From: a virus
IMG/VR virus record: IMGVR_UViG_3300046323_000245
Span: 1 to 20,388 of that record
Direction: 5' to 3' (one strand)
DNA: 20,388 bases
This document shows, piece after piece, positions 2,194-20,388 of the stretch (its first letter is position 1; each line of letters opens with the position of its first letter). A program made the translations under genes and the position numbers. The notes beneath the pieces were generated by a model. That model did not search any database, was not told the DNA's origin, and was given only the letters and a program-made list of their open reading frames with translations.

Positions 2194-2888
2194 CCTCGTC
2201 TCACAATCACAGTATGCAGATTTGTTTTTTCTGTAACAGTTGAAACAGTATCTTTGTCGTAATCTAAAGACAATTGAGATCTAGATGCTTTGGTGTTTGA
2301 AAGCTGTTCATATTTTGCAGCTTTAATGCTAAATAAATCACCGACAACATTTGAGTTGCCTTCGAATATGAATTGCAATGTTTTATAAGTTGATAATTGT
2401 TTAACTTGTTGTTTGTCCAGAATATCTGAAGCAGTGTATTTAGATCCGTCTTCTGCAAATATTCCTTTTTCATCGAGCATATCGATGATCCAATCTTGTG
2501 CTCGTAAATGAACAATATTCCAAGATGACCACTTTTTTGGTCGATATTGATCAATTTCTGGTTCATAGCCATAAAGATCAAAGTCAGATGAAAACAATCC
2601 TGCTGTTGCAAGATTTAAAACTGTAACATCTTTTGTAAATGTTTGTGTGCTAGGAAGTGTTGTTGTAATTCGAAGTGAAATTGTCTTAGTTCCTGCTGTA
2701 GTAAAAACCCAATCAATGTATTTTTTAGTCGTAACATTATACCAAGTGACACCAGCATCAATAGATATTTCATGTGAAATTGTAGCAAATGTTAAGTCAG
2801 GCGCTATGAAAGATTCACTGACATCGATTCGTAATTTGTCACCTGTGAAAACTTTTTCATCAGCTTTGATGATTCCAAAAATTGACAT
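2190..2888 (-). CDS. Head-tail connector-like protein with Ig/PKD-like N-terminus
   Basis: A 232-residue protein that appears to have two parts. Residues about 10-95 look like an Ig or PKD-type beta sandwich (ISHEISIDAGVTWYNV, then TAGTKTISLRITTT). Residues about 110-232 are helical and carry a pattern I associate with phage neck or connector proteins: W-x-x-VHLRAQDWIIDML, GSKYTASDIL, GDLFSIKAAKYEQL and finally SLDYDKDT. In relatives the last motif is usually an acidic LDxDxDG-like stretch. It is preceded by GAGGGG and lies just upstream of the tail terminator. Connectors sit under the portal and join head to tail. The added Ig-like domain would probably face outwards. Confidence 0.55.
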   Translation of the reverse strand: MSIFGIIKADEKVFTGDKLRIDVSESFIAPDLTFATISHEISIDAGVTWYNVTTKKYIDWVFTTAGTKTISLRITTTLPSTQTFTKDVTVLNLATAGLFSSDFDLYGYEPEIDQYRPKKWSSWNIVHLRAQDWIIDMLDEKGIFAEDGSKYTASDILDKQQVKQLSTYKTLQFIFEGNSNVVGDLFSIKAAKYEQLSNTKASRSQLSLDYDKDTVSTVTEKTNLHTVIVRRG

Positions 2889-2890
2889 CT

Positions 2891-3421
2891 TTACCCCTCA
2901 GTCAGTGATTGCCACTTAACATTGTTTTCATATCTATCAGATAGGACTTCCATGTCCTTTAAGCCGATCTTGTCATGCGATTCTGTAGGAGCAAACCCCC
3001 AGAACTTCTCTGCAAAACGTGATCCAAGCTCGGTGCATACCATCGCCCTATTGCCATTCAAAACAAGTTTATTAAAAATCAAATTGAGCCAGCCAAAAAC
3101 TATTGTTAAACCAATAAAAATTATTTGCTCAATCGCGTATCTTTTCCCAACTTGATTTTCTAGCCATTCATATACCTGAGATTGTAAATGCTCAGGAACA
3201 GACCATTGATATTCTTTTACAAGCGTGTAGTGTTTATTCCACTCTGACCGAGTTAGCTTTTGAAATCTTGGAAAGATTGACTCATAGACTTTAGGCTCGC
3301 CAAATGTTTCAAGCTCAATGGCAAAATGACCAAAAGGAACGATTTCGCCAATTTGTAAAAGCTTGTTTCCAAGTTGCTTGTACCACACCAAAGGATTTCC
3401 AAATAGAAACTTGATCGTCAT
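2891..3421 (-). CDS. Permuted papain-like (YiiX / NlpC-type) protein
   Basis: I place the start at the ATG at 3421, which overlaps the previous stop as ATGA and has CGGAG upstream, rather than at a longer open frame; the product is 176 residues. GHFAIE (His32), VYES (47-48) and MVCTEL (Cys129, Glu131) give the His-then-Cys order of circularly permuted NlpC/P60-like YiiX-type cysteine enzymes. Between them, after GKRY, lies a hydrophobic stretch at 98-122 (IIFIGLTIVFGWLNLIF) that could be a membrane segment. Related enzymes cut peptide or lipid-linked bonds. Its place among connector and fibre genes suggests a particle-borne activity, perhaps for entry. The fold call is from motifs only. Confidence 0.5.
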   Translation of the reverse strand: MTIKFLFGNPLVWYKQLGNKLLQIGEIVPFGHFAIELETFGEPKVYESIFPRFQKLTRSEWNKHYTLVKEYQWSVPEHLQSQVYEWLENQVGKRYAIEQIIFIGLTIVFGWLNLIFNKLVLNGNRAMVCTELGSRFAEKFWGFAPTESHDKIGLKDMEVLSDRYENNVKWQSLTEG

Positions 3422-4296
3422 ATTGTAAGCTCCGATATTAAAAATTGTCTGATTGTTACACCATATGGAGTCATTGAATTGATCCAAGGATAGTTTGAAA
3501 CACTAGCGTATCTCGCGTGAGCTGGGCTTTGAAAGCACGAAACAATATCCCTATTTGATTCATCAACAAAAGCATCAAATTCTTTTTTGTAATCAAATAA
3601 AAATCTTCGACCTTCTAAAATAACCGTCGAACTTGGCATTGGAGATCCAGTCATAGCAAGTGAGATTAAACCAATACAAGGCATTTGAAGATTATCAACT
3701 AAGTTTCCGCGTCTAGTTTTTCCTTCTTGTATCTTTTCCAAAGAATTATAATATTTTGCCCAGTGTTTTGACTCTGGACTTTCTAGACCGTTTTTGTCGT
3801 AAAAGTGTAGATGCGAAGACCTTACAACGGGAAAGCCTAACGGATCTCTTGTAAAAGAATGGTGTTCTGAAACAATTAAATTTGAATAACTTAAAACTCC
3901 TTGCGCGTTTACGCTACAATTCTCATAGTATTCTTCACTCACGCACTCGCCCTTAATTAAAATAGATTTTCTGTGAAGCATCTTTGTTAAAGAAGTTCTA
4001 AAATCTAAAGCCAAAGGAACTTCGCTTGTGTTATAAGCTTTTTTATCTATTACGAAATCATAAATTTTGTAATATTTAATTAAGTCTGATTGAGTTTGTA
4101 GCCATGAATCAAAGGCCGCCTGATGTGCTGCTTTGTATGCCGTATACTGCGTTAGACTCATAATGGTAAAATTTAATTGTTCAAATTGTTCTATCTGAAA
4201 GTCCTCACAAGGAAGTTCTTGCCAAGGCCAAACCAATGGAATGTTTATAGGTCTTTCAGATTCTGGACACAAAGAAAATGTTTTAAATGCTATCAT
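3418..4296 (-). CDS. Unknown structural protein
   Basis: A 292-residue protein I do not recognise. The start has AGGGAATTGTAATG and overlaps the preceding fibre stop by one base; the end overlaps the next gene by ATGA. It has no signal peptide or clear membrane helix and is rich in aromatic residues, with a Trp/Pro-rich start (NIPLVWPWQELPCEDF), a central charged helical part (HLHFYDKNGLESPESKHW, YYNSLEKIQEG) and a C-terminal stretch with NYPWINSMTPYGVTI. Tight coupling to the fibre gene suggests it is a virion component or works with the fibres, for instance as an adaptor. No enzyme motif is visible. Confidence 0.6.
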   Translation of the reverse strand: MIAFKTFSLCPESERPINIPLVWPWQELPCEDFQIEQFEQLNFTIMSLTQYTAYKAAHQAAFDSWLQTQSDLIKYYKIYDFVIDKKAYNTSEVPLALDFRTSLTKMLHRKSILIKGECVSEEYYENCSVNAQGVLSYSNLIVSEHHSFTRDPLGFPVVRSSHLHFYDKNGLESPESKHWAKYYNSLEKIQEGKTRRGNLVDNLQMPCIGLISLAMTGSPMPSSTVILEGRRFLFDYKKEFDAFVDESNRDIVSCFQSPAHARYASVSNYPWINSMTPYGVTIRQFLISELTI

Positions 4297-9753: not shown

Positions 9754-10279
9754 CTAATTTCTCCAATAGTTTTAATGCAGCAGCATCAGAAATTGTGTTC
9801 TTTTTATTAACCTCTGGCTTGATTGCGTTTGCGATTTCTTTTAATTCTTTATCGGTCCAGCCAAACCATTCACGTTTTCGAACTTTACCGTCAAGTGTTG
9901 GATGACCTTTAAACCCTGTCATGTGCGCGTAAGCTTTTGCAGCTTCTAACTCGTCTATGATTCCAATTTTCATTTTACTGTTTTTAGAATCAAGCTCTGA
10001 GATTGATGTCAGCATATCGCCTGTTAATTGCATATTGACCGGATTAGATTTGCCAAACACTTTAAATGCTAATGAGTTTTTGTATGACTCAGAATAAGTG
10101 CCTAGTTGTCCATTAACTGACCGACCTTCGTCGAGTCGCTTTTGTAATCTATCTACAGCAGCCTCAAAGAATACAGCGCGTACAGCCTCGTTACGAGCTG
10201 CACCGCCTAGTAGTTTCTCAAGATCAATGTCTGTTGAAACTTCTTCTTCTTTAAGAGTTTTTTTCTGTAGATCCGACAC
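9746..10279 (-). CDS. Virion morphogenesis / tail completion-like protein B
   Basis: A 177-residue protein starting at GTG at 10279, which overlaps the portal stop as TAGTG. The order YSESYKNSLAFKVFGKS, VNMQLTGDMLTSI, a short beta pair (KMKIGIIDE), AKAYAHMTGFKG and KREWFGWTDKEL is characteristic of the phage virion morphogenesis / gp10-like group: the LTGxML element, a His-containing loop and an R-x-W-F-G-x-(T/S)-D end. These proteins act at the neck or in tail completion. It is followed at once by a second protein with the same elements, so this locus holds a divergent pair. Confidence 0.62.
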   Translation of the reverse strand: MSDLQKKTLKEEEVSTDIDLEKLLGGAARNEAVRAVFFEAAVDRLQKRLDEGRSVNGQLGTYSESYKNSLAFKVFGKSNPVNMQLTGDMLTSISELDSKNSKMKIGIIDELEAAKAYAHMTGFKGHPTLDGKVRKREWFGWTDKELKEIANAIKPEVNKKNTISDAAALKLLEKLVG

Positions 10280-11955
10280 TAATTAAATGAGCTTTGAGAC
10301 TTTAATTCAGCAGGATCAATTTTGAATGATTTTCCTGCCTGACCTAAAATCTCAGTAGCCTCATCCTCTGTTACGTTAAACGATCTGACAATCATCGACT
10401 GAGCTGCATCGTAAGACAACAAGCCTGCTGCAACCTTAGAAACGATCTCAACAAGTGAACTAACCTGAGCGCCATTAAGTGCAGTTTTAGCAGCGTCTTG
10501 ACCTGTTGCAACCATCTTAGAAAGCATATCAATTTTTCTTTGCTCGATTTCTTCAATTTTTTCAACAGCAAGCGCCTTGGTTAATCCGTCAACATCCATT
10601 AGCGTAGTGACTTTATCGGCAACACCTAAATCAATTTTCTTTTTAGCATTATCTAACGCCTCTGCTTTTGTTTCAATGATCTCAGGCTTTGCAAAATTAA
10701 CTGTAAGCTCAGAGTTAACGATTCCTTGAGTTACATTGTATTTGGGATCTAAAAACTCAGTGTTTGATAAAAGTGCTAAATACTTAGTTGTGATCTTGTG
10801 TAGCTTGTGCTCAACAACATTAAATAAATCAAAGTCTTCTTTAGAGGCTCTAAATTGATCAATCATCACCATTAAACGCTCTAGAGCCGATGAGTAATTA
10901 CCTGAGCCGCTTGTAGAGCTTGAAACAGCTTTAGAGTCGATTGATCTTGTTGATAGAAAAGTGTTAACCAATGAATCAATGCACTTTAAAGTTGAATCTA
11001 GATCAGGTGATGGATTTTTAAAGTCTAATGTTAAGTTTGACTCTGGATTGTTAGGATTTTGCGGCAAGAACAAAAACCGATTAGGTCCAACAGTCATAGA
11101 CTCAGGCTTTAACTCTGGATCACCACTGACAACGCCAACAGAATATCCTTGAAGTCGTGCAATGTATAAAAGATCAGACCATGTCACATTAAAATCAATT
11201 GTGAAATCTGTTAAGGCTTGTCCAATTCTAACGAAAAACTCAAAGTCTTTTTCTTTTGCAATATCAATAAATGGCAGCTCGTCAATCGGGTTAGGATTTA
11301 TCTCGCTTACAACGTCACCCTTGCCATTCATTGTGAAAACATATTCTTTTGTCCAGACCTGATACCTCTCGGCATTTGATTTGTAATCGTCCGCATCTGC
11401 TGTGATTTGATTGTTGTTGTCTTGATTAGCTTTTAAGTAATTTGATTTATCAAAGCTTGAAATAATAAATGCAAATGCCGTTTCTGGATCATCTGAATCA
11501 GGAATCACGTCGATATTGTGCGCGTGTAAAACTCTGAGTTTAAGCTTTCCTTGCTTTGGAACTACCTGCAAAAATGATTGATTCATCAGCTTGTAATATT
11601 TGTTTGCTTTAGCAAGTGATGTGTTAAATCCAAAATCTGCATAAGCTTTTTCTAAAACTTCCTCATCAGATTCTAGAATTTCCTCATAGTCTCTAGTCGG
11701 TGAGTCTGTGTAAATCTGAGCCTCTTTATTCACAACAGCTTTAGCAACATTTAGATTTGAAACAATTGGCATTAAGTCAGCAGTTTGTTTCGATAACTGA
11801 CAAGCAATTGCGTCGTAAACATACGGCTTTGCATTGTCGTTATATACTTCGTAAGCTTTCAAAGACTTTGCTTTTCGGTTTACATTCTCCCATGATTTAA
11901 TATCTGCTACGACTTGTTTTCTAGTATTTGCGTCTAATAAATTTGGATTTGCCAT
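10279..11955 (-). CDS. Portal protein
   Basis: A 558-residue protein whose ATG abuts the stop of the large terminase gene. Length, position and overall shape fit a phage portal: an N-terminal helix (DIKSWENVNRKAKSLKAYEVY), a region resembling the wing (FIDIAKEKDFEFFVRIGQALTD), a central segment with IARLQGYSVGVVSGD and GPNRFLFLPQN, helical crown or stem regions (ERLMVMIDQFRASKEDFDLF), and a helical C-terminus with NVTEDEATEILGQAG. The C-terminal third is acidic and rich in helices, as in SPP1 gp6-type portals. Portals form the twelve-part ring through which the terminase pumps DNA. The family subtype is uncertain. Confidence 0.82.
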   Translation of the reverse strand: MANPNLLDANTRKQVVADIKSWENVNRKAKSLKAYEVYNDNAKPYVYDAIACQLSKQTADLMPIVSNLNVAKAVVNKEAQIYTDSPTRDYEEILESDEEVLEKAYADFGFNTSLAKANKYYKLMNQSFLQVVPKQGKLKLRVLHAHNIDVIPDSDDPETAFAFIISSFDKSNYLKANQDNNNQITADADDYKSNAERYQVWTKEYVFTMNGKGDVVSEINPNPIDELPFIDIAKEKDFEFFVRIGQALTDFTIDFNVTWSDLLYIARLQGYSVGVVSGDPELKPESMTVGPNRFLFLPQNPNNPESNLTLDFKNPSPDLDSTLKCIDSLVNTFLSTRSIDSKAVSSSTSGSGNYSSALERLMVMIDQFRASKEDFDLFNVVEHKLHKITTKYLALLSNTEFLDPKYNVTQGIVNSELTVNFAKPEIIETKAEALDNAKKKIDLGVADKVTTLMDVDGLTKALAVEKIEEIEQRKIDMLSKMVATGQDAAKTALNGAQVSSLVEIVSKVAAGLLSYDAAQSMIVRSFNVTEDEATEILGQAGKSFKIDPAELKSQSSFN

Positions 11956-13560: not shown

Positions 13561-13945
13561 CAGATGCAGCAGCCTTTTTAAGTGACTCCTCTGAGTATGA
13601 TAAAATGATGCCTGTTGATCCTTGCTCTACTGTGTGTTCAATCGCTTTTCGTTTTGGATACATATAACCGATTAATATTTTACCAGCCTCTAAGCGATCC
13701 TTGAGCGTGATAACTTGTTCTTCAATTAATGCGCCTTGAAATCCTTGCTTTGTAATCACTGGACTATCGTAACCTAGACCTTGATAATCATTCTTAAGAA
13801 TTAAAACCATTTGTTCTACTGGATCAATGTTGTGTTTTTTGCAGATAGTAAATAAATGATCTGTTGATTTATTTGGTGTGCCCTTTTGCCTTCCGCCTGT
13901 CTTTTGATGCGTTGTGCTAGTTTTTTCTACTTTAGACTGAGCCAT
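13547..13945 (-). CDS. Probable terminase small subunit
   Basis: I use the ATG at 13945 (MAQSKVEKT), which has GGTGG five bases upstream, not the in-frame TTG further up; the product is 132 residues. Near the start is GGRQKGTPNKST, a basic DNA-binding opening seen in many phage small terminases and related packaging proteins. A helical middle (LFTICKKHNIDPVEQMVLIL) and DRLEAGKILIGYMYPKRKAIEH near the end match the same group. Small terminases pick the viral DNA and guide the large subunit. The gene lies one gene upstream of terL, and its first bases overlap the HTH gene before it. Confidence 0.6.
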   Translation of the reverse strand: MAQSKVEKTSTTHQKTGGRQKGTPNKSTDHLFTICKKHNIDPVEQMVLILKNDYQGLGYDSPVITKQGFQGALIEEQVITLKDRLEAGKILIGYMYPKRKAIEHTVEQGSTGIILSYSEESLKKAAASDEKN

Positions 13946-14201
13946 TAAAACCACCAATCAATCTGTTTTTAATTTCTTCAATTTCTTTAATCTTAAGTAA
14001 ATAATTATTGTAGCTCACAATTAACTCATGCTGGCCTTTGACGTTAAACCGATCATACAGCCTGCGCTTTCTGTCTTTAATGCAAGCGAGTGACATATTT
14101 AATTTACTCGCAATTTGACTGGCTGACATTCCTTGCATCACGCAATTTAAAACATCGCGCTCGCCTGACTTTAAAAATATTGGAGTTAATCCTGTTGTCA
14201 T
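13932..14201 (-). CDS. LuxR/GerE-type HTH protein, second of a pair
   Basis: An 89-residue protein consisting almost only of a LuxR-type four-helix DNA-binding domain. The segment SGERDVLNCVMQGMSASQIA followed by SKLNMSLACIKDRKRRLYDRF, then the short V-K-G element, follows the GerE pattern: an R-E-x-x-V-L-like opening, G-x-S-x-x-x-I-A, and the recognition helix with K-x-x-x-R-x-L. There is no receiver or sensor domain. The start overlaps the previous HTH stop by ATGA. It may control late phage genes or bind DNA in packaging. The next gene is the probable small terminase. Confidence 0.72.
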   Translation of the reverse strand: MTTGLTPIFLKSGERDVLNCVMQGMSASQIASKLNMSLACIKDRKRRLYDRFNVKGQHELIVSYNNYLLKIKEIEEIKNRLIGGFNGSV

Positions 14202-14584
14202 TTAATCTCTTTCCTTAAGTGCGCTAGCATATCAACATTGATTGAAAATGATTGCTTGATACCATTCTCTGTCGTGAAGTGTAGGCCCTCTTTAGACGCT
14301 TTGTTGATAAGCTGTAATCTGTTTTCGACGTTAAATTTCCAATAGACGTGTGACAGTCTCCATTTCACACAAGCTATTGTTCTATAAATAAGTTTAGCGA
14401 TTTCTATGATCTCAACACCTGATAAGGTCATGTGCATGATTTGTAGTTCAAGTGTTGATAATTCTGGCGTTCCTTCAAATCTTTCTTGTAAGTTTGCTAC
14501 AGGTAATGCAAAGCCTTGTTCATAAGCCTTTTGATTCCTGTCGTTTTCTTCTTTGCTCGCAAATAAATTAGGCTGAAATCCCAT
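14198..14584 (-). CDS. LuxR/GerE-type HTH protein, first of a pair
   Basis: A 128-residue protein. Residues about 42-105 form a divergent LuxR-type HTH: LSTLELQIMHMTLSGVEIIE, then IAKLIYRTIACVKWRLSHVY and WKFNVENRLQLINKA. The G-V-E-I-I-E-I-A-K-L-I helix and the following T-I-A-C-V-K-W-R recognition helix are shared in spacing with the next protein. The N-terminal 40 residues are polar with no known domain; the C-terminus is basic. The ribosome binding site is weak. An inverted repeat lies 60-90 bases upstream of the start and could be a binding site for this pair. Confidence 0.65.
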   Translation of the reverse strand: MGFQPNLFASKEENDRNQKAYEQGFALPVANLQERFEGTPELSTLELQIMHMTLSGVEIIEIAKLIYRTIACVKWRLSHVYWKFNVENRLQLINKASKEGLHFTTENGIKQSFSINVDMLAHLRKEIK

Positions 14585-15745: not shown

Positions 15746-15961
15746 CTAAACCGGAACCGGAGTTGCTACAAGCTTTTCAATCCAAGCGATAGCAGCATCA
15801 TCAATGGGCGTTGCAGTTTTAGCAGCAAGTTTTTTGATTTCAGCTAACAAATCAACCTCAACAGATGCAGAAACTTTAAGCTTTAATTCTGGAGTTACGT
15901 CAACAGTTACAGAGCCAACTTGACCAATTTTTTGTTCGAATTCTGTGCCTTCTAAAACCAT
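15746..15961 (-). CDS. Small unknown protein of the lysis region
   Basis: A 71-residue acidic protein with a strong start (AAAGGAAAATAACATG). The first half reads as beta strands (VGSVTVDVTPELKLKVSASV); the second half is helical (DLLAEIKKLAAKTATPIDDA and IAWIEKLVATP). No Cys, no signal peptide and no membrane helix are visible. I do not recognise a family. It sits between two membrane proteins in the lysis region and is probably co-translated with them. Confidence 0.5.
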   Translation of the reverse strand: MVLEGTEFEQKIGQVGSVTVDVTPELKLKVSASVEVDLLAEIKKLAAKTATPIDDAAIAWIEKLVATPVPV

Positions 15962-16275: not shown

Positions 16276-16482
16276 TTAAGCCTTGTATCTTTTTTGATCT
16301 ATTTTTTTGGCTTTGTACTCAGAAATCAAATGAAAAAGATTTGCATAGATAATAAAATACGCCTCAGATTGAGGCTTTACTTTGGCCTTACTAAACGAAA
16401 TTTGTAAACTCCACCCTTCAAGTAATGATTTTTTTACAATCTCCGTTTTCTCTTTAATTTCTTGATCTGTTAGTTCTCTCAT
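16276..16482 (-). CDS. Small unknown helical protein
   Basis: A 68-residue basic protein with a clear start (AGGAACCAAATG). It is mostly helical: an N-terminal helix with DQEIKEKTEIVKKSLLEGW, a middle with AYFIIYANLFHLISEYKAK, and a Lys/Arg-rich end. No signal peptide; the hydrophobic middle is too short and mixed for a confident membrane helix. The N-terminal pattern of a charged helix, an EGWS turn and a SKAKV segment hints at a small HTH-like fold, but I cannot confirm it. Confidence 0.5.
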   Translation of the reverse strand: MRELTDQEIKEKTEIVKKSLLEGWSLQISFSKAKVKPQSEAYFIIYANLFHLISEYKAKKIDQKRYKA

Positions 16483-16550: not shown

Positions 16551-16781
16551 TTAAATTATTTTTTCTTTGCTGTTGCTTTTTTTGTTACTTTTTTTGCTGG
16601 CTTCTTTGAAGTTGCTTTCATTTTTATCCTTTCCACTGTCTTTTAATACAGTCAAATCTAGCTCGTAAAGAGCATTAAATATTAAGCTAATAGCCTCGCG
16701 CCACGCGCCTGCGTTAAGCTTTAGTTTTTCATTCTGCTTTGCGGATACAATTTTGACAATCTGATTTATTATTTTTTTGTT
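16551..16781 (-). CDS. Open frame of 76 codons with no ATG, after the endolysin stop
   Basis: Directly after the TAG of the endolysin gene the same frame stays open for 76 codons to a TAA at 16551. It reads like protein: IVKIVSAKQNEKLKL, then GAWREAISLIFNALYELDLT, and a Lys/Ser-rich end (SKKSNKKSNS). It contains no ATG or GTG. Initiation would need a rare codon (ATA or ATT near the top, or TTG late), or the TAG is read through to extend the endolysin. It may also be a gene that has lost its start. The end overlaps, in another frame, the 21-residue peptide listed next. Confidence 0.4.
   Translation of the reverse strand, partial: NKKIINQIVKIVSAKQNEKLKLNAGAWREAISLIFNALYELDLTVLKDSGKDKNESNFKEASKKSNKKSNSKEKII
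16556..16621 (-). CDS. 21-residue Lys/Ala-rich peptide, histone-tail-like
   Basis: A short ORF with a strong site (GGAAAGGATAAAAATG) that encodes MKATSKKPAKKVTKKATAKK plus one more Lys. The K-K-P-A-K-K and K-K-A-T pattern is that of histone H1 and of the Lys/Ala tails of some bacterial HU-like proteins, which bind DNA by charge. It has no folded domain. It lies in a different frame from the 76-codon ORF and shares its last 66 bases. I think translation is plausible given the start site, but the length makes any function a guess. Confidence 0.5.
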   Translation of the reverse strand: MKATSKKPAKKVTKKATAKKK

Positions 16782-17363
16782 CTACCTTGTTGATTCATTG
16801 TCTTTTGTTTTAGAGCTGCAATTCACTGATTTTAAAATCTTGTCAGGCTTTGGATAGTCTTTAACATCTTTAGGCCATCGAACAGCGCAAATTTCACCAA
16901 CAGAGTATGTTGATACCTTCCAGGTGTTTCCCTGATTACCTCCGTAAAGATCAATCGTTGCATTTTTCTTCGTAAGGTCTTCTACAGTACAATCTCCATT
17001 TGCTTGAGCAATATGATTTGAACTAGATGAGCCGCACTTTGTATGATTGATTTGAACAATTGCACCTTGAGGAATACCGTCTTGTTTCCAATCAATTTCA
17101 ACACCGTACTTAGCCCAGTTTCTCGCTAGTGCGCCATTCTTAGCGTAGTCAACACCGACTCCTGATAATGCAACAGCCATAGCAAGCCCACACCATGCGG
17201 CCCACGACTCTTTAATGGTTCCAAGATTCATCCCAAAAAGCTTCCATTTTGCAGACATCTCTTTGTTGAACTCAGGTTCATTTTCGTTTCTGCCTTTGTA
17301 TTTTAATGCAAATAAATACCAAGGTGGTGACTTCTTTTTTTGTTCTTTTTTTTGATCGGCCAT
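16782..17363 (-). CDS. Endolysin-like cysteine peptidase/amidase (TIGR02594-like)
   Basis: A 193-residue protein with a good start (AGAAGGATGTAACTAATG). The motifs match the TIGR02594 / CHAP-like group: SWAAWCGLAMAVALSGVG with the likely catalytic Cys58, then ALARNWAKYG, PQGAIVQINH, SSNHIAQANG with the likely His117, and DLYGGNQGNTWKVSTY followed by AVRWPK. These enzymes cut peptide parts of the cell wall. The first 45 residues are basic and unusual for the group. There is no signal peptide, so a holin would be needed for release. The gene before it encodes a transglycosylase, making a two-enzyme lysis set. Confidence 0.8.
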   Translation of the reverse strand: MADQKKEQKKKSPPWYLFALKYKGRNENEPEFNKEMSAKWKLFGMNLGTIKESWAAWCGLAMAVALSGVGVDYAKNGALARNWAKYGVEIDWKQDGIPQGAIVQINHTKCGSSSSNHIAQANGDCTVEDLTKKNATIDLYGGNQGNTWKVSTYSVGEICAVRWPKDVKDYPKPDKILKSVNCSSKTKDNESTR

Positions 17364-18064
17364 TAGTTACATCCTTCTAATTTGTTAAGTGCTGCGTTTA
17401 TTTTAAGATAAGATTGTCTAGGCTTTTCGTCAAATGTAGGTCTAACTACGGCCCAATACCTACTAAGCCCTTTCCACTTTTCATCAACTTTACCAGTAAC
17501 AATCTTGTCTTGAGTAAAATAGTTCTTTGCTATGTGCAGTGCGCATTTAATGTTTAAGTATTCATTATGCAGGTCACTAGATTGATTGATCCAAGAACAC
17601 CCAAGCCCACGAGAACTGCTAACACTAAGCTGAAATAATCCTCTACTGACAGCATAACCACCATCAAGCTTGCTAGAGGTAACGCGACAGAAACCGCGTA
17701 CAGGATCAGTGAAACAACCACTAGAATAATAGCACTTAGCTTTAGCACATTCATAATACGCTTCTTCATTTTTAAACCCCGACTCATGTCTGATCATTTC
17801 GTAAAATAATGTTGTGTAAAATAAATTCAAATCCTTTGGAGTTTTTGAACAGAATGGAAGATAGCTCGTTTGAAGTGGCTCAAAATCTTTTGCGGCAATC
17901 GATAGTTTTTCTTTCAACGTCAACGGCTTTGGAGTCGTTTGATCTGCGCTGGCCACAGTTGAATCAACACTTGCAATAGTCGCATCATGACTTGCTACTG
18001 TTTCTGTTGTCTTTGGCTCTTCACAGCTTACTAAAAAAAGTGCTGCGATAATTAAATATTTCAT
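17363..18064 (-). CDS. Lipoprotein lytic transglycosylase (SLT-type)
   Basis: A 233-residue exported enzyme. The start follows AAAGGAGAAGAAGAA. A signal peptide ends in LVSC, with the lipid-bearing Cys14; a Thr/Ser/Ala-rich linker covers about 15-47. The SLT domain shows MIRHESGF with catalytic Glu94, VSRGLFQLS at 139-147, then LHIAKNYF at 176-183 and LSRYWA at 200-205. These match the E-S, G-L-x-Q and late Tyr motifs of the family, which cut glycan strands. The domain has many Cys (CAKAKCYYSSGC and others), probably disulfides in the periplasm. An outer-membrane-bound enzyme could aid lysis or act at the next step of infection. Confidence 0.82.
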   Translation of the reverse strand: MKYLIIAALFLVSCEEPKTTETVASHDATIASVDSTVASADQTTPKPLTLKEKLSIAAKDFEPLQTSYLPFCSKTPKDLNLFYTTLFYEMIRHESGFKNEEAYYECAKAKCYYSSGCFTDPVRGFCRVTSSKLDGGYAVSRGLFQLSVSSSRGLGCSWINQSSDLHNEYLNIKCALHIAKNYFTQDKIVTGKVDEKWKGLSRYWAVVRPTFDEKPRQSYLKINAALNKLEGCN

Positions 18065-20018: not shown

Positions 20019-20309
20019 TCATTTTAGCTTTTCCAAACTTGTTTTATGAACATAGCCAATATTTAGTTGCTTAAAAGAAATCAGCTCTCTTGATTCTGTT
20101 AAAACCTTTTCGCCCGTTTGAATATTTCGATAGTTTCTAGCCTTTGTTTTTTTTAGAAAGAATCTGCCAAACCCTAAAATCTTAAGAACATCACCAGACA
20201 AAACCTGATTGGAAATTATTTCAGTCAGGCTGTTTAAATATGATTCTGCTTGTTGAATTGTTATTTTTTCTTTATCTCTTAGTGCAGTTATGAGTTGCGT
20301 TTTGTTCAT
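20019..20309 (-). CDS. HU/IHF-like DNA-binding protein
   Basis: A 96-residue protein of the HU/IHF family, which bends DNA and compacts it. The start at 20309 (MNKTQLITAL) has AAGGAAAATGTAAA upstream. Family marks: LITALRDKEKITIQQAESYL at the start, GDVLKILGFGRFFLKKTKAR at 39-58, then NYRNIQTGEKV at 59-69. In HU the arm tip reads RNP with a Pro that wedges into DNA; here the same place is RNI (Ile63), so bending may be changed. The final 25 residues (about 72-96) differ from typical HU. It may condense phage DNA or aid replication or packaging. Confidence 0.88.
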   Translation of the reverse strand: MNKTQLITALRDKEKITIQQAESYLNSLTEIISNQVLSGDVLKILGFGRFFLKKTKARNYRNIQTGEKVLTESRELISFKQLNIGYVHKTSLEKLK

Positions 20310-20388
20310 TTTACATTTTCCTTTTCTTCTTTGGATAAGCAACATCTTTCGCTACCGCGACCCCGACCATGACCGCGACCCCGACCGC
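20306..20388 (-). CDS. C-terminal end of a Gly-Arg repeat protein (partial)
   Basis: The gene enters from the right edge. The minus-strand bases repeat a hexamer GGTCNN six times with one change, coding GRGRGHGRGRGS, followed by ERCCLSKEEKENVK and a TGA that overlaps the HU start by ATGA. The overlap matches the rest of the operon and favours this frame. A second frame is also open to 20311 (VGVAVMVGVAVAK-like, ending in PKKKRKM). The GC-rich repeat contrasts sharply with the AT-rich surroundings. An RG-rich tail would bind nucleic acid; that is inference. Confidence 0.5.
   Translation of the reverse strand, partial: GRGRGHGRGRGSERCCLSKEEKENVK

Follow-up and report, generated by a model that had tools for sequence, protein, structure and literature searches.

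Closest relatives of the small gene

The closest counterparts of the gene considered here are two unannotated open reading frames (ORFs) in related contigs that were reached via terminase homologues. The first, a 75-aa ORF at 2860-3087 or 2869-3087 of contig L002 (IMGVR_UViG_3300046336_000058), shares the same core, and the second, an 80-aa ORF at 67-309 of contig L004 (IMGVR_UViG_3300049845_000305), shares the core motif and carries a Lys-rich end behind an internal Shine-Dalgarno sequence (SD) and ATG. A third contig, L019 (IMGVR_UViG_3300015360_001240), has a Lys-rich mini-ORF with an SD at 3454-3540 whose peptide resembles that of the locus described below; the core gene was looked for in this contig and none was found. 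Literature searches returned nothing on this core gene. For the Lys-rich peptide, histone H1-like Lys/Ala-rich bacterial proteins such as the chlamydial HctA (PMC8343073) offer a comparison: these are likewise small and very basic, a likeness in composition only, whereas the phage peptides have just 18-23 residues and no homology between the two was shown.

The stretch of DNA analysed here (the window) is a 20,388-base contig of an uncultured phage whose genes lie on the minus strand. As in the window, the L002 gene follows an endolysin gene, precedes homologous small genes and the terminase, and ends in a Lys-rich segment; unlike the window, its ATG overlaps the endolysin stop (ATGA), its Lys-rich end lies in the same frame, and its endolysin is an unrelated Amidase_2 protein. 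The L004 gene is more distant (about 50% identity), has a strong SD and an ATG, and is followed by a gene that differs from the one downstream in the window; its contig ends just upstream of the core gene. The features of the window that bear on the comparison are as follows.

16782-17363, minus strand: upstream cell-wall hydrolase (plausibly an endolysin), 193 aa, stop TAG at 16784-16782 (PHROG 1259, TIGR02594)
16782-16784, minus strand: TAG stop of the endolysin, aligned to the start Met that is conserved as ATG in L002 and L004
16772-16798, minus strand: out-of-frame ATG (16798-16796) reading into an A7 run (16778-16772), where a -1 slip would, we infer, join the core; no SD ahead
16626-16781, minus strand: 52-codon conserved core of the start-less gene, NKKIINQ...DSGKD (homology to L002:2872-3027 and to L004 from position 70 on; pN/pS)
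16551-16625, minus strand: remainder of the reported open frame, 24 codons and TAA (the C-termini of the relatives, ..KKK and a stop, match another frame)
16556-16621, minus strand: overlapping small ORF for the Lys-rich peptide MKATSKKPAKKVTKKATAKKK (21 aa), with its own ATG, an SD-like AAAGGA at about 16632-16627, and a stand-alone relative at L019:3484-3540

The label of the 193-aa ORF is based on a match to PHROG 1259 (tail lysozyme) at E 4e-15 and on TIGR02594 at 32.5 bits, below the cut-off of 70.55, and 'endolysin' is thus given here as a plausible name.

A conserved core in the start-less frame

An earlier note, made from the sequence alone, had described 76 codons that stay open in the frame of the endolysin stop without ATG or GTG, and this was confirmed on the minus strand, where the open codons run from 16781 to 16554 and end at TAA 16553-16551 (NKKIINQIVKIVSAKQNEKLKLNAGAWREAISLIFNALYELDLTVLKDSGKDKNESNFKEASKKSNKKSNSKEKII) with no in-frame ATG or GTG among the 76. 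The sole in-frame TTG is codon 43 (GAT TTG ACT), codons 4-5 are ATA and ATA, and codons 8 and 11 are ATT. The accompanying statement that the other frames have stops stood in part: both remaining forward frames over 16551-16781 contain many stops, yet the far end of one is open and reads MKATSKKPAKKVTKKATAKKK up to its stop. In first-order Markov sequence of the window's dinucleotide make-up, a given spot stayed open for 76 codons with a probability of 0.002-0.005; since the window has 38 genes, openness by itself is weak or mildly notable evidence, and it is therefore the conservation in relatives that settles the coding nature of the frame.

A tblastn search with the window frame found L002 at E 4e-22 and L004 at E 4e-8. 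Over the first 52 window codons (16781-16626), 35 of 52 residues (67%) are identical in L002, identity between L004 and the window core is about 50%, and the core motif QN[DE]xLKLNAGxxREAI is present in all three, its L004 form being QNDTLKLNAGQIREAI. Comparison of the window and L002 cores gave a pN of 0.20 against a pS of 0.89, whereas the out-of-frame controls in shifted frames displayed no such contrast (pN 0.35-0.38, pS 0.24-0.39), and 33 of the 53 nucleotide mismatches fell at third positions (P = 1.5e-5). Because pN lies far below pS in this frame only, purifying selection at the protein level is indicated for the core frame. Judged from these sequence comparisons, the core frame is a real conserved small phage gene and not a chance opening. 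The proposal of the earlier note that the frame is protein-coding is thus upheld by the L002 and L004 homologues; both in-frame conservation and an ATG were found in these related phages, and the core does not display the contrary pattern that it had named, synonymous-site patterns free of protein constraint. Considering the distance to L004, with which the window shares 20 of 38 core residues and L002 shares 19 of 38, the window is as near to L004 as L002 is, and hence nothing points to long neutral decay. Constraint as strong as that on the core argues for a gene still in use, which counts against the reading of a lost start given below.

A core profile run against the 6254 ORFs of the loci found the L002 and L004 genes only; profile and motif scans of a viral contig collection gave no core relatives beyond these two, and the corresponding scans of a genome contig collection, as well as tblastn and blastn of phage records, gave no core match. 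Pfam, PHROGs, NCBIfam and PDB sequences yielded no significant profile or sequence match to the core protein. One further record, L032, matched the motif pattern and was left uncounted, being a 58-kb record chosen by that very pattern and otherwise untied to the group. AlphaFold, run on three sequences, reached a mean pLDDT of 63, too weak for a fold search, with helices at 3-17 and 25-41 in L002, which suggests a short core protein with two predicted helices. The result is a conserved small gene family that is absent from the searched family libraries and whose member in this record would be missed by gene callers.

Probable loss of the start codon and possible alternative decodings

The L002 and L004 genes both open with ATG AAT (protein MN...), and the window codon aligned to that start Met is exactly the endolysin TAG; the next Met of L002 aligns with ATA in the window. 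In L002 the start ATG overlaps the preceding endolysin stop as ATGA in a different frame, and in L004 the gene has its own ATG with a strong SD. An own ATG start (MN...) beside the preceding gene, by which the core family is recognized, is lacking in the window. Since the Amidase_2 endolysin upstream of the L002 gene is not homologous to that of the window, a module boundary lies exactly at this junction.

These comparisons suggested a course of events in which the ancestral start would have been an ATG (protein beginning MN) that overlapped the endolysin gene or followed it directly, and this ATG would have gone in the window, replaced in position by the endolysin TAG. The simplest cause would be a deletion of 1-2 bases at the junction when a different endolysin recombined in, or an error in the assembled sequence. 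We therefore consider it the better supported reading, held with moderate confidence, that this is a missed gene and not a case of exotic decoding; as far as we can infer, a small deletion probably removed its start recently, or the start is missing through a sequence error. That the small gene belongs to the lysis region of the phage is part of this best explanation and is rated as likely to the same moderate degree. The suggestion of the earlier note that the gene may have lost its start thereby gains support from the position of the relatives' ATG at the window's TAG.

As to the sequence quality, the 18 runs of at least seven A or T inside intact window genes are all in frame, and 99 ORFs of five relatives match the window, none with a frame break inside a gene; the two multi-frame matches in this comparison are paralogous helix-turn-helix domains, and the Lys-rich end of the L002 gene is too short for this test to reach. 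With the runs in frame and the ORFs unbroken, the assembly is not error-prone, and a base error at this one site is possible but amounts to a special plea, given the generally good assembly.

Readthrough of the TAG, giving an endolysin with a C-terminal extension, had also been proposed earlier and was not borne out. The frame is indeed open and in phase with the endolysin, but in the relatives the domain is a free protein that starts from an ATG of its own, preceded by an SD in L004, and the L002 copy lies behind an unrelated endolysin in another frame. Since the genes upstream of the domain in the window and L002 are not homologous, it is unlikely that a readthrough fusion has been conserved; TAG also functions as a stop elsewhere in the window, and we regard readthrough as highly improbable. 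A recoding of TAG was rejected as well, for TAG ends both the ORF at 15746-15961 and the portal-like gene at 10279-11955.

The sequence might instead be translated as it stands by a non-canonical route, either by a restart after the TAG on AUA (16772 or 16769) or by a -1 slip from the ATG at 16798 on the slippery heptamer A AAA AAA (MNQQGRTKK-IINQIVK...). The strong constraint on the core favors such a route in general. For the AUA start, an SD-like AAGG with an energy of -4.7 lies 12 nt ahead of the first ATA, but it is weak and its spacing long, and neither L002 nor L004 starts in that way. For the slip, the A7 run is in the right register with a 0-frame TAA immediately after it, and a conserved A9 -1 site occurs in the probable tail chaperone pair of the same phage group; against it, the ATG at 16798 has no SD (+0.3), no stimulating RNA structure lies behind the run (z +1.4), AAAAAAA occurs in frame six times in other window genes, and the site is not conserved, L002 and L004 needing no shift. 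Translation by either route is a possibility that we hold to be doubtful, and the rare ATA or ATT start that the earlier note had raised is likewise a possibility. Should the start-less form really be translated, it would offer a natural system in which to test near-cognate or slip-coupled initiation. Unlikely, too, is a fuller proposal, in which the core protein would be made from this sequence without ATG, GTG or TTG (by AUA restart or A7 slip), so that its amount would depend on how much endolysin is translated, and the Lys-rich peptide that overlaps it would be started separately, in nested, overlapping and stand-alone forms.

The Lys-rich peptide at the far end

A separate and better supported small ORF, overlapping the distal third of the reported frame in another frame, had been missed in the earlier note. 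In the window it is preceded by AAAGGATAAAA. The L002 and L004 proteins end in a Lys-rich segment from an internal ATG behind an SD (MKKTSAKKATKKVVPKKK; MKNGKKAAVKKAKPAAKPLPKKK); the segment lies in the frame of the core in these two and in another frame in the window. A similar peptide, MKKSATKKTTKKTATKKK, occurs by itself in L019, following AAAGGGG and immediately preceding a likely homologue of the window ORF 16276-16482. An SD and an ATG thus mark the start of the inner ORF in four phages, the window, L002, L004 and L019, with SD energies of -5.4, -5.4, -6.6 and -7.8, respectively, where 10% of random sites reach -5.4. Considering that the Lys-rich C-termini of the relatives match the other frame, the last 24 codons of the reported frame are probably not a real or ancestral protein end and are instead an out-of-frame overlap.

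The Lys-rich peptide probably has its own gene, which is nested in frame in L002 and L004, overlaps in the window and is separate in L019; the peptides are of low complexity, and location and start signals carry more of the case for their homology than identity does. In the relatives, one stretch of mRNA would give a long protein and, from an internal start whose use is deduced from these signals, a short basic peptide. With a net charge of about +10, the peptide may be guessed, from charge alone, to bind nucleic acid. The short helical protein together with the Lys-rich peptide in its in-frame, out-of-frame overlapping and separate forms offers a testable nested-gene case.

It has also to be weighed whether two errors or mutations in A runs (16772-16778 and 16621-16625) split one gene, comprising the MNQQGRTKK N-terminus, the core and the Lys-rich end, so that the window would have no separate peptide gene. 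Both breaks fall at A runs and jointly preserve the frame, and the core and the Lys-rich end share one frame in L002 and L004; nevertheless, the window is without other frame breaks, and in each of the four phages the tail comes with an SD and an ATG of its own. Because the tail is so equipped and occurs by itself in L019, no error is needed to account for the second break, and such a split is quite improbable.

Other genes of the window

Several further observations were made, all on the minus strand. At 16782-18064, two different putative cell-wall enzymes stand in tandem, a transglycosylase-like lipoprotein (by eye) and the TIGR02594-like protein. At this place L002 has just one gene, of the amidase type, and so apparently do L008 and L019; this was read as a swap of lysis modules. 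The 68-aa ORF at 16276-16482 has weak relatives, L019:3597 and L008:6621, with a common GWSLxxSxSK. At 201-733, adjacent ORFs of 82 and 79 aa are joined by TCA AAA AAA AAC TAA, where a -1 slip on the A9 run would give one fusion; L006 has the identical site and no ATG at its downstream ORF. A PHROG search of the two ORFs gave no match, and their arrangement is probably that of a G/GT-type tail assembly chaperone frameshift, for which a review of frameshifting serves for comparison (PMC5009743). The adjacent small proteins at 13932-14201 and 14198-14584, with LuxR-like helix-turn-helix stretches (by eye), are apparent paralogues (33% identity) that lie near the terminase genes and are conserved in relatives. 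The 108-aa protein at 20019-20345 resembles, by eye, a DNA-binding protein of the HU/IHF type.
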